Positions 19,326 to 61,383 of a stretch of 64,000 nt of DNA are shown piece by piece. The DNA is from Gonatopus flavifemur. Lineage: Eukaryota > Arthropoda > Insecta > Hymenoptera > Dryinidae. The notes beneath the pieces are model-generated. The model had not been told where the DNA came from. It was given only the letters and a program-made list of their open reading frames with translations, and ran no database searches. The stretch is taken from positions 186,001 through 250,000 of the forward strand of contig JAFFJZ010000026.1 in assembly GCA_018340375.1 (NCBI GenBank), in the 5' to 3' direction. How positions within the stretch are numbered: position 1 is the stretch's first letter; each line of letters begins with the position of its first letter. Made by a program: the position numbers and the translations under genes.

Positions 19326-20618
19326 CGAGGGTGGATTGATAAGTTTCCGGCCTGACCAAGAGATGGCGCCACTAGGCCTACCTTGAGGTGGCGTTCTATA
19401 GTACCACCCTTAGATAGCTTGTAGCTATAGTTTCAGTCCGATCGCCATGTTAGTTTATTTTTGAGAGCACGCTGACCAAGATGCCTCTGTGTTTTTCGTA
19501 AAAATGGAAAAGCTGGAAAATCGTGCTGTCATCAAATACTTTTATTTGAAGGGGTTAACGCCGAAGGAAATTGAAGAAGAGATGGACTCAACACTGGGGA
19601 CATCCTCCCCATCATATTCAACCGTTAAGCAGTGGGTTTCCGAGTTTAAAAAGAGTCGTGTGAGCACCTCTGATGAGCCTCGCTCAGGACGCCCCATTGA
19701 GGTCACAACTCCAGATATGATCGAAAAAATCCATCAAATAGTGCTGAAAGATCGCAGATTAAAAGTTCGTGAGATAGCTGAGACCTGTAAGATGTCATAT
19801 GAACGTGTACAAAATATTTTGCACCAACATTTGTATATGGAAAAGCTCTGTGCAAGATGGGTGCCGCGTTTGCTAACAGTCGACCAAAAATTGATTCGAA
19901 AGAACATTTCTACCGCCAATTTGGCGTTGTATAAGCGTAATCCAAGCGAATTTTTGCGTCGATTCGTAACCGTTGACGAAACTTGGGTCCACCACTACAC
20001 TCCTGAAACCAAAGAACAGTCTAAACAGTGGATTGGACCAGGGGAACCAACTCCAAAGAAGGCAAAAACAATTTTTTCGCTGAACAAGGTTATGGCTACT
20101 GTTTTTTGGGATGCAAGAGGTATTATATACATTGATTACCTTGAAAAGGGTAAAACTATCACTGGTCAATACTACGCAGACTTATTGCAACGTTTGAGCC
20201 ACGAAGTGAAAATTAAACGACCTCATCTGGCGAAGAAAAAAATCTTGTTTCATCACGATAACGCACCAGCGCACACGTCAATCGTTGCGATGGCTAAAAT
20301 CAACGATCTGAAGTTTGAATTAATGCCGCACCCTCCCTACTCTCCAGACCTAGCCCCGAGTGACTATTATCTGTTTCCTAACCTCAAAAAATGGCTTGGC
20401 GGTAAGAGATTTGCGGACAATGAAGAAGTAATCGAAGCTGTGAATGGGTATTTTGAGGAGATTGACGAATCAGTCTATAGAGATGGCATTACTAGACTAG
20501 AACACCGCTATGAGAAATGTATCAGCCTTGGAGGAGATTATGTTGAGAAATAAAAAAAAAAAAATTCTTAAAAACGTTGTTTTTCTTGGTCAGGCCGGAA
20601 ACTTATCAATCCACCCTC
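19326..20618 (+). mobile_element. mariner element, irritans-type, apparently complete
   Basis: Inverted ends CGAGGGTGGATTGATAAGTT and AACTTATCAATCCACCCTCG are exact over at least 35 bp (to CTTGGTCAGGCCGGAAA...). TA flanks both sides (19324-19325, 20619-20620), the Tc1/mariner target duplication. Length 1293 bp is normal for mariner. It interrupts an older repeat region and looks young compared with its surroundings. Confidence 0.93.
19504..20553 (+). CDS. mariner transposase, uninterrupted
   Basis: Cut-and-paste DDD transposase that would bind the flanking inverted ends and insert at TA. I prefer the ATG at 19504 (MEKLENRAVIKYFYLKG), which matches where irritans mariners start; an in-frame ATG at 19489 adds five residues. 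Order: N-terminal paired-type helix-turn-helix (about residues 5-115, with SGRPIEVTTPD), linker WVPRLLTVDQK, then the catalytic domain with VDETWVHHYTPE, HHDNAPAHTS and SPDLAPSDYYLFPNLKK. There are exactly 34 residues between second and third Asp. About 349 residues, full length, no stop or frameshift. It could be active; nothing in the sequence proves expression. Confidence 0.92.
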   Translation: MEKLENRAVIKYFYLKGLTPKEIEEEMDSTLGTSSPSYSTVKQWVSEFKKSRVSTSDEPRSGRPIEVTTPDMIEKIHQIVLKDRRLKVREIAETCKMSYERVQNILHQHLYMEKLCARWVPRLLTVDQKLIRKNISTANLALYKRNPSEFLRRFVTVDETWVHHYTPETKEQSKQWIGPGEPTPKKAKTIFSLNKVMATVFWDARGIIYIDYLEKGKTITGQYYADLLQRLSHEVKIKRPHLAKKKILFHHDNAPAHTSIVAMAKINDLKFELMPHPPYSPDLAPSDYYLFPNLKKWLGGKRFADNEEVIEAVNGYFEEIDESVYRDGITRLEHRYEKCISLGGDYVEK

Positions 20619-26283: not shown

Positions 26284-26589
26284 AGCCACCTCGTGCCCTT
26301 TGATCAGACACACTCTCTCAATTTAGACACACTCTCTCAATTTAGACACTCTCTCTCAATTTACAGACTCTCTCAATTTTGACTCACTCTCAAATTTTTC
26401 TCAAACTCATACATTCACTATTATAGTTCAATTCAAAAAGTTATATACGTTATAATCTCAAAGTTAAGTTCATTGTACTTGATAAATTTATTTTAAATAT
26501 ACTCAACCAACATTCAATTGGGAAGTTTTATTCATCAAAACCACAAAGTAAGTTCAAAAGAATAAAATACACGCGATTTTATTTCTTCT

Positions 26590-26880
26590 TAATCCCTTCA
26601 AATTTCAATCCTTTTCCCTGATAACGAAACTCGCGGTCGTTATCAGAACATACTATACAATTTTCCTTGTTTTAAGACGAGATACTCGCGATCTAGTCTT
26701 AATCCCTTCAAATTTCTATCCTTTTCCCTGATAACGAAACTCGCGGTCGTTATCAGAACATACTATACAATTTTCCTTGTTTTAAGACGAGATACTCGTG
26801 ATCTAGTCTTAATCCCTTCAAATTTCTATCCTTTTCCCTGATAACGAAACTCGTGGTCGTTATCAGAATATACGTTATCC
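26590..26880. repeat. 110-bp tandem repeat with ATACTCGCGATC motif
   Basis: AATCCCTTCAAATTTC starts at 26591, 26701 and 26811. Each unit contains CTGATAACGAAACTCGCGG and GAGATACTCGCGATCTAG (CGTG variants later). Shorter ATACTCGTGATC words continue to about 27020. It lies in the presumed R/U5 part of the solo LTR. Confidence 0.85.
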
Positions 26881-43594: not shown

Positions 43595-44287
43595 TCACAT
43601 AACGAGGATATCGCTGTAAAATTTAGATAATCACCAACAAAAATCTACGAAATTAAAATACGATGTTTGTAGATAGTGAACATCATTTATATAAATTACA
43701 ATCTATGATTAGAATATTCATATTTATTGAAAAATATATAAATGAATCCAATAAATCACTAGTTCCAATCAAAATATTGTATTGATCCCAACCATTCTTT
43801 CAATAAAGGATATTTGAAATTTGAACTTTGCAACTGTAATTTTTTATCAAATTTCTGATGTGTCATTAACAGTATTTTCAACACAATTCATTATCATAGA
43901 TTGTGATTTTCAGTAACTCGTGTGTGATTGGTCGAATCACAGATTCCATTCAAAATGAGCGCAACCAAATGTTTAATGCGTCACGTGGTGCTCAATCGTA
44001 GTTTATTGTTTTCGACTTGTTACCGGCGAGATCTACATATGACAAGAATGGAAGAGTTAGAAGACATTGGACACGTGATAAATCAATCCTCTTTCAAAAC
44101 TCATTATCATATCTTCATTGGACATCTTTTAAACTTAGATACAGCCACGAAATACTTTTCAGGATTGATTAAATTAAAGATTCTTCATGCGATAATAACA
44201 TATTGTAATCGCTCAATGTATTGGAAAATGTTACATCTCAGGTTATTATGAATATTCTGTTATTTGTAGGTTATTACTCTTGAACCC
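43595..44287. other. no gene recognised
   Basis: A plus-strand frame (43928-44251, 107 residues) has no family resemblance. AT-rich. A possible element end (ACACCGAGAGAGAAAAAG) is at 43556 but its partner was not found. Confidence 0.35.
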
Positions 44288-44589
44288 CTAGCAAGTTCGT
44301 GATACGTATCTCTTAGGTATATCTCAGGTATCGATGAGGTTTCGTATCTTTGAGGTATCATAGCAGTATACTTGAAGTATTTATACTCAATTGCAACCTC
44401 GATAATACGTTTCATATGGTTAAAAATGATACCCCAAGGATACTAGAATGAAACGTAACGTGTCAGTATATGATACGGAAATGTAACATTGCTCTCAACA
44501 GGGTGTCTGCTATCTGGAAATTCTACCAGAATTGTTCAACCACAAATTCGCGTTGAATAGAATGATCGGTTGGACGCATAGAATTTCCA
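44288..44589. repeat. CCTAGCAAGTTCGTG repeat end and a short hairpin
   Basis: CCCTAGCAAGTTCGTGATAC at 44287 has its complement (ACACGAACTTGCTAGGGA) at 46500-46518. Both flanks are rich in AGGTATC/GATACC words (44300-44480 and 46365-46500). At 44515-44589 CTGGAAATTCTACC pairs with GCATAGAATTTCCAGG. The arrangement suggests an older element now straddling the left end of the giant palindrome. Confidence 0.5.
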
Positions 44590-44593
44590 GGTA

Positions 44594-44990
44594 CCCTGGT
44601 TAAAAGGTCCAATAGAAACCGATAAAAACCGATTCAAAATTAATCGGAATGAATAGGGTCAATCGGAGAGGCTCAACTACCGATTCAAGATGAATAGGAA
44701 TTAATTGGAACGTGGTATATATAGGATTGAATCGAGGATTCATCGATAGAAAAATATTTGTTTTATTGGAATTAATGTGACTTTCAGTGATCAATCGGTT
44801 TGTATGAGAGATATCTGATTGAGAATATGAAAATTTCTCCATTTCATGAGGCAAATGGTTTTTATCGAAAATTTCCATGACCTAAAGCTATTGGAACCGA
44901 TCGTAAATGTTACGTAATGGGCAATTTAATCGGTTTTTATGAAGAATGTCCAATTCGATTAGAGTTCGTACAGATTTGATCGGTCTGTAG
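44594..44990. repeat. giant element, left terminal block
   Basis: The complement of 54245-54640 with few differences; shared words include GGCTCAACTACCGATTCAAG and GGAACGTGGTATATATAGGA. Rich in AACCGAT/ATCGGTT. After 44990 the two arms diverge: this arm goes directly into the 66-bp array, while the right arm has additional blocks. Confidence 0.8.
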
Positions 44991-45710
44991 ATTTTATTGA
45001 ATTCTATTGAAAAATATTTGACTGGTATCAAATGAAATTTTCATGATTAACAAAATACCGATTCAATCCAATTGAAAAATATTTTATTGGTATTAATCGG
45101 ATTTTTTTATCAACTATAAAATACCCATTCAATCCAATTAGAAAATATTTTCTCGGTATCATTTGGAATTTTTGTGATTAATGAAATACCCATTGAATTC
45201 CATTGAAAAATATTTCACTGATATCAATTGAAATTTCAATAATTAATAAAATCTCGATTTAATCAAATGAAAAATATTTTCTTGGTATCAATAGGAATTC
45301 TTATTATTGATGAAATACCTATTGGATGCCATTGAAAAATATTTGACTGGTATCAATTAGAATCTTCATAATTAATAACATACCGATTCAATCCAATTAC
45401 ACAATATTTCATTGGTATCAATCGGAATTCTTATTATTGATAAAATACCTATTGGATCCCATTGGGAAGTATTTGACTCGTATCAATTAGAATTTTCATA
45501 ATTGATAAAATACCGATTGAATCCAATTGAAAAATATTGTATTGATATCAATCGGAATTTTTCATCCATCATAAAATACCGATTGAATCCAATTGAAAAA
45601 TATTGTATTGATATCAATCGGAATTTTTCATCCATCATAAAATACCGTTTGAATCCAATTGGAAAATATTCTCTTGGTCTTCATTGGGATTTTTATTATT
45701 AATGAACTCC
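44990..45710. repeat. ~66 bp tandem array, left arm
   Basis: About eleven units of the pattern AAATACCGATTGAATCCAAT...TGAAAAATATT...GGTATCAAT...GAATTTT. The AAATACC word recurs at about 45053, 45118, 45184, 45312, 45443, 45506, 45577 and 45645. The last two units are almost identical. Confidence 0.85.
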
Positions 45711-45834
45711 CATGCTCTCATTGAGACCGATACAATCTCTCATATGTCCAATGGACTATTACCAATTGAATCTTATTACTACAGGACACCCATCCCTGAC
45801 ATAAGACAGTCATTTAGTTCACGTTGATAGGAAG

Positions 45835-45928
45835 CGAACCACGGCATCGAGCGAGCGGGTGTTCCAGGTCGATCTTCTAGGTTAAGCAACGACAACTGCG
45901 GTACAAGGTGGATGGGTGATCACCATGT
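45835..45928 (+). ncRNA. 5S rRNA-like segment, left arm (degenerate)
   Basis: Contains GTTCCAGGTCGATCTTCTAG, GGTTAAGCAACG and TGCGGTACAAGGTGGATGGG then TGATCACC, in the order and spacing of eukaryotic 5S rRNA (cf. AATTAAGCAGCG and ..GGATGGGTGACC.., the internal pol III control region). 5' and 3' ends of a full 5S are not clear. Probably a 5S-derived repeat that may supply a pol III promoter. The right arm has an inverted copy. Confidence 0.5.
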
Positions 45929-46727
45929 TAATAACACATAAATGATCGTTTGAATTTATTTCAGCAATAATTTGTCATACGTAATGATTGAATAAATGAT
46001 ATATGTGTTTGTTTAATTGATGTAAAATGCGCGTATATAATGTATATAAACCGTTCGTTGGTTGGGTTAACAACCAACAAAATTCAATAAGAAAATCGCG
46101 ATGCAGGAATCAATTCATTCCGATAAGTTTTTTTTATCGGATTCAATCGGATTTTTTAACCAGGGGAAAGACCGATTAAATCCAATTGAGAATGATCTTA
46201 TTGGTATCAGTAGGAAATTTCCGATGCAGAAACTCAATTCATTCCGATAAATTTTTTTTCAATTTCAATCGGATTGTTTAACCAGGGTGGATTACACTTA
46301 CAATAATTGCAAATTACAAAGTCTAAATTGTAATACAAAGGAGAAGTGTTTGGTATTTTTTGAGTAACAATGATACTGTATGAAGTTCTTTTCCAAGGGT
46401 TTCCTTTTAGTATCGAAGATGCTTTAAGCGTATCGTCTACGCATCATTCAAGTATCAAATTGAACATTTTGCGACGTAACATTCACGTATCATTGAGGTA
46501 ACACGAACTTGCTAGGGACCACTCTTATACTCGCCGCAAGAATCAGTGAAAGACTAAAACTTATATTTAGAAACTGATCTGCATCGTGGATTTCATTGTT
46601 ATGCAGTTGAAATTTCCCGTAAATGCATTACTTATGGAAAAAATGGCGCAACATTTGACTCGCTTCTTCTGATGCTTGAATATGGCTTCAAGTGTCGTCC
46701 AAAACTCCCCAATCTCACAGCGGTCAA

Positions 46728-46790
46728 TTGGCTCAGCGGTTCGCGTATTATCTTTCAATCACTTGCGTGCAATCAGAGTTCGTGTCTCCC
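46728..46790 (+). ncRNA. weak tRNA-like A/B box pair
   Basis: TTGGCTCAGCGGTTCGCG followed 30 bp later by GAGTTCGTGTCTCCC resembles the A and B boxes of a tRNA. No cloverleaf. Could be a SINE head or coincidence. Confidence 0.3.
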
Positions 46791-46916
46791 TGGGAAGCAA
46801 AATTTCCTACGAAATGTTACTGTCCAAATTCCGTCAATAATACAGGTTAATTCAATAGTATAATTGGAAAACGTATAGTTTGTAAGACTTCGAATCCGTG
46901 AATATGGTATACTAAG

Positions 46917-47170
46917 TACACGGAAAGAAGAAAACAGCACCAGTTACTGTCCATAACAGCAATCAGTTGAAAAACAAATGAAAACACGCTTGGATCATAG
47001 AGGTTAGTGCGATCACAGTAATGTGTACTGCAGTGAAATTCGTCAATGCTGCTTGGACATTAACGGTTACTGAGAGACGCGGTAATGAACAGCGTGAATT
47101 TGATTTTTCATTATTTTTCAATGAATTACTGCGATTCACAGTAACCATTGCTGTTTTATTTCATTCTAAA
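46917..47170. mobile_element. element with TACACGGAAAGAAGAAAACAGC end
   Basis: The left end and AGTTACTGTCCATAACAGCAA pair loosely with CACAGTAACCATTGCTGTTTT near 47140. Non-coding, nested in the 46053-47561 insert; right border uncertain. Confidence 0.4.
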
Positions 47171-47561
47171 TCATTTATAATATTCAATCCGTTCATCCCT
47201 GGTTAAACAATCCGATTGAATCCGATAAAAAAAAATTTTATCGGAATGAATTGAGTTCCTGCATCGGAAATTTCCTATTGATACCAATAAGATGATTTTT
47301 AATTTGATTTAATCGGTCTTTCCCCTGTTTGAAAAGTCCGATTAAATTCGATAAAAAAACATTTCTTCGGAATGGATTGAGTTTCTGCATCGGAAATTTC
47401 CCATTGATACCAATAAAATAATTCTTAACTGGATTTAATCGGCATTTTCCCTGGTGAAAAAATCCGATTAAATCCGATAAAAAAAACTTATCGGAATGAA
47501 TTGATTCCTGTATCGCGATTTTCTTATTGAATTTTATTGGTTGTTAACCCAACCAACGAAC

Positions 47562-47950
47562 ACCTCCGTGAACTTGGCCGGGACCCGGAACGGATTTGAA
47601 ATTTATATACGGCAATCGAAAAAGCATCGTTTGTACCTGATTGTACCGCAAAAATTTTCGTTTGCACCTCAAAGGGGGCGGAGATATGGCCCAGGGGCTT
47701 ATGCCCCCGCCTGTGACTGGAACCGATAGGGACGATCTGGGTGTCATTTGAAAGGGCTTCGTTTGTACTTGATTGTACCGATGATATTTCCGTTTGTACC
47801 TCAAAGGGGGAGGAGATATGAGGAAAAATAGTTTTTAGCAATTTATATCGATTTTTTTGGGGATTTCTCATTAGGAGGACTCTGGATTGCTTCAGACTGT
47901 ATCCTAAACTGTGTAAGATCTTGGGGCAGACACCCATACATCTCGGGAGT
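47562..47950. repeat. inner GC-richer block, left copy
   Basis: The inverted partner is 51195-51591. Shared words include CACCTCCGTGAACTTGGCCG (or its complement), CAAAGGGGGCGGAGATATG, GGGGCTTATGCCCCCGCCTG and repeated CGTTTGTACCTGATTGTACC. Frames such as 47524-47988 and 51195-51692 are mirror shadows of each other, not genes. Confidence 0.85.
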
Positions 47951-49888
47951 GGAATCCCGTCGTTTGTACCTCCACAGTTTCGCCACAATTAGACTAGATT
48001 GCCCAAAAATCGATATACTTTCACGATTTTTTTTCCATCAGGACCCTGGATTAGTCCAGGCTATGTTCTGAACGGCATGAAAACTTAGATTGAACCTCCT
48101 CACATACTAGAAAAATGATTTCGTCGTTTGTACCTCCACAGTTTTGCCACAATAAGCCTAGATTGCCTGAAAATCGATGTATTTTCACGATTTTTTTCCC
48201 ATCAGGCCCCAGGATTAGTCCAGGCTATATTCTCAACTGCATGGAAACTTGGGTAGGACCTCCTCACATACTAGAAAAATCATTTCGTCGTTTGTACCTC
48301 CACAGTTTTGCCACAATTAGACTGGATTGCCCAAAAGTCGATATACTTTCACGATTTTTTCTCCATCAGGACCCAGGATTGGTCCAGGCTGCATTCTGAA
48401 CCGCATGGAAACTTAGGTAGGACCTCCTCACATACTACGGAAATGATTTCGTCGTTTGTACCTCCACAGTTTTGCCACAATAAGCCTAGATTGCCCAAAA
48501 ATCAATGTACTTTCACGATTTTTTTCCCATCAGGACCCAGGATTAGTCCAGGCTATATTCTGAACGGCATGAAAACTTGGATTGAGCCTCCTCACATACT
48601 AGAAAAATGATTTCGTCGTTTGTACCTCCATAGTTTTGCCACAATAAGCCTAGATTGCCTGAAAATCGATTTATTTTCACGATTTTTTTTCCATCAGGAA
48701 CCAGGATTAGTCCAGGCTATATGCTGAACTGCATAGAAACTTAGGTAGAACCTTCTCACACAATAGAAGAACGATTTTGTCGTTTGTACCCCCACAGTTT
48801 CGCCACAATTAGACTAGATTGCCCAAAAATCGATATACTTTCACGATTTTTTCTCCATCAGGACCCAGGATTAGTCCAGGCTATATTCTGAACTGCATAG
48901 AAACTTGGGTAAACCTCCTCACACGCTACAAAAATGATTTCGTCGTTTGTACCTCCACAGTTTTGCCACAATTAGACTAGATTGCCTGAAAATCGATATA
49001 CTTTCACGATTTTTTCTCCATCAGGACCCAGGATTAGTCCAGGCTATATGCTGAACTGATTAGAAACTTAGGTAGAACGTTCCCACACACTAGAAGAACG
49101 ATTTCGTCGTTTGTACCTCCACAGTTTCGCCACAATAAGCCTAGATTGCCCAAAAATCGATATACTTTCACCATTTTTCTTCCATCAGGACCCAGGATTA
49201 GTCCAGGCTGTGTTCTGAACGGCATGAAAACTTAGATCGAACCTCCTCACATACTAGAAAAATGATTCCGTCGTTTGTACCTCCTCGGTTTTGCCACAAT
49301 CAGCCTGGATTGCCTAAAAATCGATGTATTTTCACGATTTTTTTTCCATCAGGAACCAGGATTAGTCCAGGCTATATTCTGAACTGCATAGAAACTTGGG
49401 TAAACCTCCTCACACGCTAGAAAAATGATTTCGTCGTTTGTACCTCCACAATTTCGCCACAATAAGCCTGGATTGCCCAAAAATCGATATACTTTCACGA
49501 TTTTTTTTCCATCAGGACCCAGGATTAGTCCAGGCTATGTTCTGAACGGCATTGAAACTTGAGTAAAACCTCCTCACACGCTACAAAAATGATTTCGTCG
49601 ATTGTACCTCCACAGTTTCGCCACAATTAGACTAGATTGCCCAAAAATCGATATACTTTCACGATTTTTTCTCCATCAGGACCCAGGATTAGTCCAGGCT
49701 ATATTCTGAACTGCATAGAAACTTGGGTAAACCTCCTCACACGCTACAAAAATGATTTCGTCGTTTGTACCTCCACAGTTTTGCCACAATTAGACTAGAT
49801 TGCCTGAAAATCGATATACTTTCACGATTTTTTCTCCATCAGGACCCAGGATTAGTCCAGGTCATGTTCTAAACGGCATAAAAACTTT
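47950..49888 (+). repeat. ~163 bp satellite array, forward half
   Basis: About twelve units. GTCGTTTGTACCTCCACAG starts near 47960, 48123, 48287, 48451, 48614, 48779, 48942, 49107, 49270, 49434, 49597 (variant) and 49760. Each unit continues with CACGATTTTTT, CCATCAGGACCCAGGATTAG, TCCAGGCTATATTCTGAAC and CTCCTCACATACTAG. Confidence 0.92.
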
Positions 49889-51195
49889 TTTTCTAGTATG
49901 TGGGGAGGTTCCATCTGAGTTTCCATGCCGTTAAGAACATAGCCTGGACTAATTTTGGGTCCTGATGGAAAAAAAACCGTGAAATTATATCGATTTTTGG
50001 GCAATCTAGTCCAATTGTGGCGAAACTGAGGAGGTGCAAACGACGGAATCATCTTTCCAGTATGTAAGGTGGCTCAATCCAAGTTTTCATCCCGTTCAGA
50101 AGATAGCCTGGACTAATCCTGCGTCCTGATGGAAAAAAAATCGTGAAAGTATATCGATTTTTGGGCAATCTAGTCTAATTGTGGCGAAACTGTGGAGGTA
50201 CAAACGACGAAATCATTTCTCTAGTATGTGAGGAGGCTCAATCTGAGTTTTCATGCCGTTCAGAATATAGCCTGGACTAATCCTGGGGCCTGATGGAAAA
50301 AAAATCGTGCAAATACATCGATTTTCAGGCGATCTAGGCTAATTATGGCAAAACTGTGGAGGTACAAACGACGAAATCATTTTTCTAGTATGTGAAGAGG
50401 TTCAATCTAAGTTTTCATGCCGTTCAGAACATATCCTGGACTAATCCAGGGTCCTGATGGAAGAAAAATCGTGAAAGTATATCGATTTTTGGGCAATCTA
50501 GTCTGATTGTGGCGAAACTGTGGAGGTACAAACGACGAAATCATTTTCGTAGTATGTGAGGAGGTTCTACCTAAGTTTCCATGCAGTTCAGAATATAGCC
50601 TGGACTAATCCTGGGTCCTGATGGAAAAAAAAATCGTGAAAATACATCGATTTTCAGGCAATCTAGGCTAATTGTGGAAAAACTGTGGAGGTACAAACGA
50701 CGAAATCATTCTTCTAGTATGTGAGGAGGTTCAATCTAAGTTTCCATGCTGTTCAGAACGTAGCCTGGACTAATCCTGGGTCCTGATGGAGAAAAAATCT
50801 TGAAATTATATCGATTTTTGGGCAATCTAGTCTGATTGTGGCGAAACTGTGGAGGTACAAACGACGAAATCATTTTCGTAGTATGTGAGGAGGTTCTACC
50901 TAAGTTTCCATGCAGTTCAGAATATAGCCTGGACTAATCCTGGGTCCTGATGGAAAAAAAAATCGTGAAAATACATCGATTTTCAGGCAATCTAGGCTAA
51001 TTGTGGAAAAACTGTGGAGGTACAAACGACGAAATCATTCTTCTAGTATGTGAGGAGGTTCAATCTAAGTTTCCATGCTGTTCAGAACGTAGCCTGGACT
51101 AATCCTGGGTCCTGATGGAGAAAAAATCTTGAAATTATATCGATTTCCGGGCAATCTGGGCTTATTGTGGCAAAACTGAGAAGGTACAAACGACG
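49889..51195 (-). repeat. ~163 bp satellite array, reversed half
   Basis: About eight units in the opposite direction, with GGTACAAACGACGAAATCAT near 50200, 50365, 50530, 50695, 50860, 51020 and a variant near 51185. The switch occurs at CTTTTTTTCTAGTATGTGG (about 49885-49900). A two-unit block of about 325 bp (50550-50875) is repeated almost exactly at 50876-51195, so this half expanded recently. Confidence 0.92.
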
Positions 51196-51591
51196 TGATT
51201 CCACTTTCGAGGCGTATGGGTGTCTGCCCCAAGATCTTACACAGTTTAGGATACAGTCTGAAGCAATCCAGAGTCCTCCTAATCAGAAATCCCCAAAAAA
51301 ATCGATATGAATTGCTAAAAACTATTTTTCCTCATATCTCCTCCCCCTTTGAGGTACAAACGAAAATATCATCGGTACAATCAAGTACAAACGAAGCCCT
51401 TCCAAATGACACCCAGATCGTCCCTATCGGTTCCAGTCACAGGCGGGGGCATAAGCCCCCGGGCCATATCTCCGCCCCCTTTGAGGTACAAACGAAAATT
51501 TTTGCGGCACAATCAGGTACAAACGATGCTCCTTCGATTGCCGTATATAAGTTTCAAATCCGTTCCAGGTCCCGGTCAAGTTCACGGAGGT
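51195..51591. repeat. inner GC-richer block, right copy
   Basis: Reverse complement of 47562-47950 with few differences, for example CCTCCCCCTTTGAGGTACAAA and CAGGCGGGGGCATAAGCCCC. Confidence 0.85.
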
Positions 51592-51730
51592 CCAACGAAC
51601 GGTTTATATACATTATATACGCGCATTTTATATCAATTAAACAAACACATATATCATTTATTCAATCATTACGTATGACAAATTATTGCTGAAATAAATT
51701 CAAACGATCATTTATGTGTTATTAACATGG

Positions 51731-51821
51731 TGATCACCCATCCACCTTGTACCGCAGTTGTCGTTGCTTAACCTAGAAGATCGATCTGGAACACCCGCTC
51801 GCTCGATGCCGTGGTTCGCTT
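51731..51821 (-). ncRNA. 5S rRNA-like segment, right arm (degenerate)
   Basis: Inverted copy of 45835-45928: CACCCATCCACCTTGTACCG, CGTTGCTTAACCTAGAAGAT and GGAACACCCGCTCGCTCGAT on the plus strand. Differences from the left copy are few, so any pol III promoter would direct transcription toward the outer end in one arm and inward mirror-wise in the other. Confidence 0.5.
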
Positions 51822-51949
51822 CCTATCAATGTGAACTAAATGACTGTCTTATGTCAGTGATGGGTGTCCTATAGTAATGAGATTCAATTGGTAATAGTAC
51901 ATTGGACATATGAGGGATTGTATCGGTCTTAATGAGAGCATGGCAGTTC

Positions 51950-52985
51950 ATTAATAATAAAAATCCCAATGAAGACCAAGAGAATATTTTCCAATTGGAT
52001 TCAAACGGTATTTTATGATGGATGAAAAATTCCGATTGATATCAATACAATATTTTTCAATTGGATTCAATCGGTATTTTATCAATTATGAAAATTCTAA
52101 TTGATACGAGTCAAATACTTTCCAATGGGATCCAATAGGTATTCTATCAATAATAAGAATTCCGATTGATATCAATGAAATATTGTGTAATTGGATTCAC
52201 TTGGTATTTTATGATCAATGAAAATTCCGATTGACGCCAATACAATATTTTTCAATTGGATTGAATAGGTATGTTATTAATTATGAAGATTCTAATTGAT
52301 ACCAGTCAAATATTTTTCAATGGCATCCAATAGGTATTTTATCAATAATAAGAATTCCCATTGATACCAAGAAAATATTTTTCATTTGATTAAATTGGTA
52401 TTTTATTGATCATTAAAATTCTAATTGATATCAGTGAAATATTTTTCAATAGAATTCAATGGGTATGTCATTAATCATAAAAATTCCAATTGATACCAAG
52501 AAAATATTTTCTCATTAGATTCAATGGGTATTTTATGATTGATAAAAAATTCCGATGGATACCAATAAAATATTCTTTAATTGGATTGAATCGGTATTTC
52601 ATCAATCATGAAAATTCCAATTGATACCAGTCAAATATTTTTCAATGGGATCCAATTGATATTTTATCAATAATAATTATTCCGATTGATATCAATGAAA
52701 TATCGTGTAATTGCATTCACTTGTTATTTTATGACCAATGAAAATTCCGATTGATGCCAATACAATATTTTCCAATTGGATTCATTCGGTATGTTATTAT
52801 TCATGAAGATTTTAATTGATACCAGTCAAATATTTTTCATTCGGGATTTTATTAATCATTACAATTATACTTGGTACCAGTAACATATTTTTCAGTGGGA
52901 TCCAATGGATATTCCATCACTGATAAAAATTCCCATTGATACCAATGAAATATTTTCTAATTGGATTCTCTTGGTATTCTATGAT
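51950..52985. repeat. ~66 bp tandem array, right arm
   Basis: Inverse of the left array but longer (about fifteen units), with GGTATTTTATCAATAATAAG-like and AAATATTTTTCAATTGGATT words. Units vary more than in the left arm. Confidence 0.8.
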
Positions 52986-54245
52986 TATAGTTCTCTATTC
53001 CAGCAACTTTCCCATTAGTTCCAATACATCGAGGTCACCAGGGATTCTGATAAAAACCAATGATTTGATGCAATGAAAGAAATTTCAGAACTGAATCGGT
53101 TATTGCCGGTACATACCTATAGGACTTTAGAATCTGTAAACTTGCCTATTATTTTCAATAAATTTGAATGTTGGAATAATCCAATTAAAACCCATTGATC
53201 AATGAAATCGATACATCCTTAAATGCAGTCAGAAATCTCCCATAAGAAACCCATTCATCATTCAATTTCACAAATTTTCCCATTAGTTCCAATGGATTGA
53301 AATTGCGGAAACCTCCGATAAAAACCGTTTGCCTGATGGAATGGAGAAAATTTCAATCATCCAATCAGATATCTCTTATACAGACCAATAGATTATGTGA
53401 AGTTTGATTAATTCCCATAAAATGCAGATCTTTTAATTCGTGAATCCCCGATTGAAACCTATAGAAAAGAGATTCCGATAAACTCTTATTGATTTTTAAT
53501 CGGGGATTAAACTGTTCCGATTGATCCTATGCAGTCCGATTAATTCTGAATCGGTTTCTATCGGATCTTATCGGATTTTTTACCAGGGCTAATCCGGTGG
53601 AATAAAGTCTAAAATTGAATTGGACATTTCTCATTCAATGCTATTGAATATTCAATCCCGTAAATATTCCTTTCATTTCCCATGAATTGCACTGAAAAAA
53701 AAATTTCATCGAAAATTAATTATATTTTGTTGTTAGGGTAACTGAATATCATAGTCAAGTCAACAAATATATGATCAGATTGGCAGTATAATCGTTGACT
53801 TAACACCATGATGGTTGATTCAACTGCATGTAGTTGAGTCAACAGTGTATGTAATTGAGGCAACAGTCAGATTCAGTTGGATATATCCAATTGTATTCTA
53901 CTGTTGAATCAACTATATCACCGTTGTCTGTACCCACCTTTTTTCAGTGTGGGATGATCGAATAATCCAATTGAAACCTATTGACCAATAAAATAAACAA
54001 ACTCAAATCGAATTGGATATTCTGGATAGAAACCCAGTAAGTCTTGAATTTTGTACAATTTTCCCATTGGTTTCGATAGACCGAGATCACCGAAAATTCT
54101 GATAAAAACCGATAATTCAATCCGCTGAAAGGAATTTTGAATTCGAATTGGATATTTCTCATTCAATCCTATCCAATTTTCAGATCCGTAAATGGTCCTA
54201 TTATTCCCCATGAATGCGGATGGTGGAATAATCCGATCAAAACCT
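52985..54245. repeat. extra right-arm blocks with an internal CCAGGG end
   Basis: 53040-53590 ends CGGATTTTTTACCAGGGC, resembling the outer terminal block, and 53591-54245 is another degenerate copy (ATAATCCAATTGAAACC / GGAATAATCCGATCAAAACC). This material is absent from the left arm. It suggests stepwise duplication of end blocks. Confidence 0.65.
53690..53949. mobile_element. MITE with CACTGAAAAAA ends in the right arm
   Basis: CACTGAAAAAAAAATTTC and ACCTTTTTTCAGTG pair. The interior is rich in GTTGA.TCAAC words (GTTGAGTCAACAGTG). It interrupts the ATCGGTT-type repeat, so it inserted later. Confidence 0.65.
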
Positions 54246-54640
54246 ACAGACCGATCAAATCTGTACGAACTCTAATCGAATTGGACATTCTTCATAAAAA
54301 CCGAATCAATTTCCCATTACGTAACATTTACGATCGATTCCAATAGCTTTAGGTCATGGAAATTTCCGATAAAAACCATTTGCCTCATGAAATGGAGGAA
54401 TTTTCATATTCTCAATCAGATATCTCTCATACAAACTGATTGATCACTGAAAGTCATATTAATTCCAATAAAACAAATATTTTTCTATCGGTAAATCCTC
54501 GATTCAATCCTATATATACCACGTTCCAATTAATTTCTATTCATCTTGAATCGGTAGTTGAGCCTCTCCGATTGACCCTATTCCTTCCGATTAATTTTGA
54601 ATCGGTTTTTATCGGTTTCTATTGGACCTTTTAACCAGGG
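54245..54640. repeat. giant element, right terminal block
   Basis: Complement of 44594-44990. The frame 54440-54634 mirrors 44600-44878 and is not a gene. Confidence 0.8.
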
Positions 54641-54722
54641 ATGTTACACCAAATTAAATCTATTACTGATTTTCCTCCTGTGCTAACATATGTGTGTATA
54701 GCAGGTAACTTGCTATATGACC

Positions 54723-54949
54723 TACACTGTCAGAAATATTATGAAGTTTTCTTCAATACCGTACATGAATTCAAGTTAATACACATTTTACATTCAATTT
54801 AATGTACCAAAACATTGAAAAAATATAGATTTTGCTATAGCTTACATTAAATTTAATGTAAAATGTGTATGAAACTCAATTCATGTGCGTATTTGAAAAA
54901 AACTTCCAGCAAATACATTAAAATTAATGCAGAAATTTCTAACAGTGTA
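54723..54949. mobile_element. MITE with TACACTG ends in the LINE
   Basis: TACACTGTCAGAAATATT and GCAGAAATTTCTAACAGTGTA. The interior has ACATTTTACATTCAATTTAA and its inverse. It separates two recognisable endonuclease motifs. Confidence 0.75.
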
Positions 54950-60474: not shown

Positions 60475-60857
60475 CGTAGAGCATACGTATATAATTCGTG
60501 TTCGATTGCTGGAGAATCTAAGTGAAAAAATTTCCAAATTATGGATCATTATAATTTATATATAGAGCTGCATGTGAATTTTACCTAATTTGTATCATTT
60601 TCCCACCTGGGAATACTTAACTGAAGAATAAAAATATTGGTGTCAACCTCACGGCGATTTTGTGTGCGCGGAGTTGAATGAATCGAATATGGGTAGAAGT
60701 GACTGCTTGTTCAGTCATTTCAATCGAAATTCAATTGACCCAACATCGTAGCGAGATTCGCTGTATGCAAACTCGCTGTGAGATTGGCTCCACTATTTCT
60801 TTTTCCCAGTGTTGAAATACAAATTTTTATTTTCAAAGATAAATGATAAGTACTTAC

Positions 60858-61035
60858 GAATCTACTGCTGTTATTGTTCCTCACTGTTTTGGCGTTACCG
60901 AAGGCTTCCAACAGAGGATTTGATTCCAAAATTATGTCTTTGACTCTCTGAACTTTTTCTGTACCGCCGCTTATCCTCGCTACGTAGGACATGATGTATT
61001 TTGCGGCCACAGTTTTTCCAGCTCCAGATTCACCG
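60858..61035 (-). CDS. Myo1e: class I myosin, P-loop exon A
   Basis: After acceptor TTCATGTAG, one base completes a codon (probably Ser), then [40 protein letters not shown] and [19 protein letters not shown], then donor [18 protein letters not shown] is the myosin ATP-binding P-loop and NNNSSRF is the first half of switch I. 178 bp, ending in phase 0, which joins in frame to GKY of exon B, 22.9 kb away. Upstream exons (motor N-terminus) should lie above 61035 but none was found to 64000. Myosin I would act at the actin cortex and membranes. Confidence 0.95.
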
Positions 61036-61383
61036 CTACATGAATCACATACAGATATTAAATCACAAAAAAAGTTAGAAGCAAAGAGGAAAACATGAAC
61101 AAATCGACAAAGTAAAACGAAGTTGTGATGTTATATCTGGGAGGATAACACTGCAAAAGAAGAATAGGGAAGCCAATCCCGCGACGAGATTGGCCACACT
61201 ATTTTGCTCCTTCAGAGGAAGAGATAGTTACAAAATATTGGGAAATAATGCCGATGTTCAGGAATTTTGTTCTTCCCCGTGCTTGATCTTTCAATTGATT
61301 TGAATGAAGCTACCCATGAGTAGTCATGCATTTGAAAATTGCCGGGGGAGGGGGGGGGGGGCCAACAGCTCGGTACTAGCAGG
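61036..61383. other. myosin intron, poly-G run
   Basis: No repeat or coding signal apart from a GGGGGAGG plus (G)11 run near 61343-61360. Confidence 0.4.

Follow-up and report, generated by a model that had tools for sequence, protein, structure and literature searches.

Foldback transposons that carry tandem repeats in long inverted arms are known from Drosophila and from root-knot nematodes. In the parts of the sources drawn on here, Tetris of Drosophila virilis is described as having long inverted arms in which tandem repeats follow an outer flanking domain, no coding frame, a variable repeat number, and target duplications of 8 to 10 bp (PMC4079207), and the Mutator/foldback family Tm1 of root-knot nematodes as consisting mostly of nonautonomous members, with composite inverted repeats that contain tandem repeats and with duplications that are mostly 9 bp (PMC3169594). 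Galileo of Drosophila also has long arms with internal tandem repeats of changing number (PMC3573991). Here we describe an element that shares these features, X, at positions 47562-51591 of a 64,000-nucleotide window of the Gonatopus flavifemur genome (Hymenoptera, Dryinidae; assembly GCA_018340375.1, contig JAFFJZ010000026.1, designated C176 here, positions 186001-250000). X lies in the interval 44594-54640, which a first-pass annotation had described as one giant 10-kb palindromic element and which we resolve instead into bounded, ordered insertions.

X is set apart from each of these systems. Tetris has ∼220-bp repeats and arms that enclose inner and middle domains, whereas the arrays of X have 164-bp units and, in the window copy, abut head-on without a middle domain, a distinction of description and not of sequence. 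Tm1 repeats are ∼14 bp, and one Tm1 type is reported to encode a MULE-like transposase, while none was found with X. Galileo is placed in the P superfamily with 7-bp duplications, in contrast to 9 bp in X. We conclude that X is a foldback family that is new but of an established kind, and the most interesting part of the nest of insertions described below.

Insertions that make up the palindromic interval

We estimate a probability of roughly 0.93 that 44594-54640 is a stack of independent cut-and-paste insertions of ordinary mobile elements. These elements have boundaries, target duplications, uninterrupted sites, and dispersed copies in the host genome, which was searched as 636 Mb in 402 contigs. 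They comprise two copies, El1 and El2, of a dispersed family E; an element F; and X. El2 in turn lies in a long interspersed nuclear element (LINE).

44286..46517: F, bearing El1; ends CCCTAGCAAG...CTTGCTAGGG, 20-bp end match; AC at 44284-44285 and 46518-46519
44594..46287, plus strand: El1, family E copy with an internal deletion at 44995/44996; flanks TA/TG
44996..45703, plus strand: 65-bp tandem array of El1
45704..46061, plus strand: regular E block, found in L040-L044 as well; called 5S-like in the first-pass annotation
47164..47196, minus strand: resumed LINE frame on the far side of El2, MNGLNIINDLE then stop
47197..54640, minus strand: El2, fuller E copy, split by X and flanked by the 2-bp duplication AT (47195-47196, 54641-54642)
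47562..51591: X, foldback transposon of 4030 bp inside El2, with inverted ends and a 9-bp duplication
51953..52982, minus strand: 65-bp tandem array of El2
54641..54722, minus strand: LINE endonuclease fragment between El2 and the next element
54723..54949: small inverted-repeat element (TACACTGT...ACAGTGTA), which also cuts the LINE; 98% copy in L020

The mirrored inverted layers of the original description are real. Repeat search and self-comparison revealed three arm pairs: 44594-44995 and 54239-54640 (402 nt, 96.8% identity), 44996-46061 and 51592-52656 (91%), and 47562-49262 and 49888-51591 (90%). Tandem arrays and a reversing central satellite are also present, as 65-bp arrays at 44996-45703 and 51953-52982 and as a 164-bp satellite at 47958-51195 that turns at 49888. 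The self-comparison showed these arms, yet the mirror is broken: 46053-47561 forms a local palindrome of its own, and nothing in the left arm matches 52657-54238 of the right side over its full length. Comparison with other copies placed transposon boundaries at 46287, 47197, 47562, 51591, and 54640.

To the right of El2, the minus-strand LINE frame reads SYSKLPAIHTYVSTGGKSVIDLIWCN, and with one AT removed it continues from 47196 as MNGLNIINDLE. Because the frame resumes there, the piece inserted in the LINE spans 47197-54640. The endonuclease frame of the LINE is indeed cut at 54640, as had been noted, by this piece and not by the whole interval. No other copy of the LINE stretch was found in the window or the fetched loci, so the support comes from the frame, the profile, and the duplication and not from an observed empty site.

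A giant element moving as a 10-kb unit would account for the inverted ends that match at 44594 and 54640. It is nevertheless extremely improbable, since the LINE frame resumes mid-interval, the outer ends come from two distinct E copies, whose opposite ends lie at 46287 and 47197, and the flanks of the 10-kb unit (TA and AT) do not match. The end-motif search that had been proposed as a check recovered 201 occurrences of the 17-base E end motif in the host genome and none of the motif read backwards; among the 100 of these 201 places listed, the window alone, as judged by eye, has a plus end with a minus end no more than 12 kb after it.

Family E has the ends CCCTGGTT...AACCAGGG and makes 2-bp target duplications. 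A search with the 402-bp left end yielded 1118 candidates, the best 40 of which were the window and 39 others at 98 to 99%. Six copies were fetched at length (L039-L044): L040, L041, L042, and L044 run from a CCCTGG end (CCCTGA in L044) to AACCAGGG over 3.0 to 3.7 kb, L039 is a 2.8-kb version with most of the middle block missing, and L043 has a degraded 3' end, for which it was left out of the count of flanks. All five long copies with both ends had matching 2-bp flanks, as judged by eye. So did 11 of 14 further copies in which both ends were readable (10 by script; L011 by eye, its end reading GGA), out of 20 fetched; in the other 6, no 3' end lay within the stretch fetched. The duplicated dinucleotide varies among AT, TA, CA, AC, GT, CT, TC, and AG.

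El1 and El2 are 96.77% identical over the terminal 402 bp. Among 29 other E copies (L010-L038), El1 is nearer to 29 and El2 to 28 than the two are to each other. A recent inverted duplication would make El1 and El2 mutual nearest relatives, which they are not; by these comparisons they inserted separately, as two oppositely oriented members of a dispersed family. Derivation of both from a single E copy, by a hairpin or template switch, would fit their opposite orientations and their spacing of 0.9 kb. The identity comparison and the separate borders rule it out to within a very small probability; in addition, the El1 deletion is absent from El2 but present at another site in L067, and the flanks of El1 and El2 differ. 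The continuity of the LINE, the separate borders, and the identity comparison likewise speak against hairpin-based amplification of the whole interval, which the first-pass annotation had offered as a route.

El1 resides in F. At L067, F carries E at the identical inner junction, with both F ends present and TC on both sides, and it also bears the internal deletion of El1; L068 and L069 have the left F end and the F/E junction as in the window. Since F and E share this inner junction between other flanks in L067, F has moved with E inside.

On this reading, the LINE took El2 (minus strand, AT duplication), and El2 later took X, the satellite-armed foldback, with its 9-bp duplication. F, which adjoins El2, already bore an E copy, here El1, and has moved with it as a composite. 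The interval looks like a layered 10-kb palindrome because El1 and El2 are opposite in orientation and X is itself palindromic.

Several observations weigh against the stack of insertions. All results rest on a single assembly. No transposase is tied to X, E, or F, although for E and F no search was aimed at one. Joining the LINE across El2 raised the PF14529 endonuclease match only from 22.7 to 24.7 bits, below the cutoff of 27.4, and the LINE contains stops. The 29 copies used for the identity test were the best hits to El1, so that the El1 half of the test is biased, while the El2 half is not. The 2-bp flanks mismatch in 3 of the 14 further E copies (L033, L015, and L032) and at El1 itself (TA/TG); for El1, the mismatch is most simply explained by a single change in the window copy, because L067 and L068 have TG/TG. 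Finally, one X copy, on contig C218, lies between inverted flanks without a 9-bp duplication.

Structure and dispersed copies of X

X consists of two flanking domains and two head-on satellite arrays between target duplications.

47553..47561: left 9-bp target duplication (CCAACGAAC)
47562..47957, plus strand: left flanking domain, 396 bp
47958..49887, plus strand: 164-bp satellite array of the left arm, 11.8 units
49888..51195, minus strand: 164-bp satellite array of the right arm, 8.0 units, reverse direction
51196..51591, minus strand: right flanking domain, 95.7% identical to the left domain, gap-free
51592..51600: right 9-bp target duplication (CCAACGAAC)

X starts with ACCTCCGTGAACTTGG and ends in its near-inverse, with last bases TCAAGTTCACGGAGGT and one difference. 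Long inverted arms with tandem repeats make up most of the element, and its dispersed copies have target duplications, as expected of the foldback class; the earlier comparison with foldback elements holds for these inner 4 kb and fails for the rest of the interval. El1 and 18 other fetched loci contain the X site in uninterrupted form (≤9 differences over 51 bases), and 15 of the 18 match its 9-mer exactly. Within the window copy, the most similar units are 2 and 4 of the right array (100%) and 6 and 11 of the left array (98%). These similarities point to local duplication, and a unit comparison between the arms revealed no unit-for-unit mirror.

A search with the 396-bp flanking domain yielded 291 candidates, the best 40 all at 95 to 100%. 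Eight inverted pairs, each within 8 kb, account for 16 of these 40 ends; the remaining ends had no partner that near among the best 40 of 291, which says little. The pairs measure 7145, 4030, 4030, 3867, 3865, ∼3710, 2555, and 2389 bp, differing from 4030 by +19.0, 0, -1.0, -1.0, -2.0, -9.0, and -10.0 times 164 bp. A script found exact 9-bp duplications, differing from site to site, at six of the eight pairs (the window, C343, C111, C292, C88, and C176). The C35 pair has a 9-bp duplication, CATCTCATG, recognized by eye after one changed end base. L080 and L081, the two copies examined for this, align across the center of window X. The 164-bp arrays would change length by unequal exchange or slippage. 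Many X copies exist in one genome with common ends and, where compared across the middle, a common center, and their lengths differ by near-whole units. This combination would allow unit gains and losses to be traced from one copy to the next, which makes X useful for the open problem of how such transposons give rise to satellite arrays or shed them.

The C218 copy (C218:51930437-51932991; L078, L082, L087, and L088) has inverted flanks 99.6% identical over 244 bp and arms 99.8% identical over 492 bp. It is either an inverted duplication or an assembly artifact.

That the palindrome of the window, or its X part, was itself created by assembly is a very unlikely alternative, although a satellite interior is hard to assemble and the near-identical arms, inverted flanks, and missing duplication of the C218 copy are what an artifact, or a real inverted duplication, would produce. 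The window X has a perfect 9-bp duplication and uninterrupted sites elsewhere, five other paired copies have exact duplications of different sequence, all three single X ends checked start at the same base, and the arms of window X differ (95.7% identity in the flanking domain). The array length could still be misassembled.

The first-pass annotation recognized no transposase and proposed mobilization in trans, among other routes. We likewise found none in X: frames of the arms in the window copy had no Pfam match, the right-arm frame had no relative at an E value of ≤0.01, and the 7.1-kb copy had no long frame. Movement of X in trans is likely, and a different transposase would have moved E and F. 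The host has at least 150 matches to the MULE domain (the best 150 of 323 candidates), and several of these lie within uninterrupted frames of >400 amino acids; among these 150 matches and the 40 X ends listed, inspection by eye found no match within 10 kb of an X end. The 9-bp duplications of X agree with those of Mutator (MULE) elements (8 to 10 bp, mostly 9 bp), a length common to other superfamilies and not sufficient for assignment. Since reports on Mutator-type foldbacks describe both 9-bp duplications and foldback arms, it is plausible that a MULE-type transposase moved X in trans.

Affinities of E and F, and other features of the window

E and F resemble two described groups in having inverted ends and 2-bp target duplications. 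ISL2EU, as characterized in the cited part of its source, duplicates only AT (PMC4482050), whereas E duplicates GT, AC, CA, CT, TA, TC, and AG besides AT. CACTA-type elements, in the passage cited, have CAC...GTG ends (PMC6004678), in contrast to the CCC...GGG ends of both E and F. Assignment of E to Dada is excluded by the 6- to 7-bp duplications given for Dada in the cited part of PMC3706591. In the text of the literature, the E end string occurred in 7 papers, none of them with transposons as the subject of its title, and the F and X end strings did not occur.

E and F would be moved by a separate transposase making 2-bp staggered cuts. We consider it unlikely that three things hold together: that this transposase belongs to a group not yet described for CCC...GGG ends with 2-bp duplications of free sequence, that F carrying E is a composite spreading with its passenger, and that X is what is left of a foldback pared down to two satellite arrays placed head-on, changing in length by whole 164-bp steps.

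The E block at 45704-46061 was compared with 5S RNA. No Rfam match reached the gathering score anywhere in the window, and the 5S covariance model did not match the block at an E value of ≤1 or ≤10. Only a weak local alignment to an insect 5S sequence was obtained, and it was equaled by 77 of 2000 shuffles. A 5S origin is not supported.

At L014, L020, and L031 and at 53590-54640 of the window, the initial 1.05 kb of E stands by itself. This piece stops at CATTA, immediately ahead of an internal CCCTGG end found there in full copies, with flanks AT/AT, AT/AT, and TC/AC. It is either a separate unit or the remnant left after excision of the inner part.

In viral contigs, the E end motif had two exact 17-base matches, extending ≤18 bases, which we take as chance; the 164-bp motif had none.

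Elsewhere in the window, a 110-bp tandem repeat (2.6 copies at 97%) occupies 26587-26873. An uninterrupted mariner-type transposase frame of 362 amino acids (19465-20553, plus strand) matches Pfam Transposase_1 and HTH_48; its best database relative is 99% identical over 96% of the frame, and those relatives that are named belong to insects and a scorpion. Among six frames scanned, the clearest piece of a host gene is a myosin head exon at 60720-61130 on the minus strand (PF00063, 2.7e-28).

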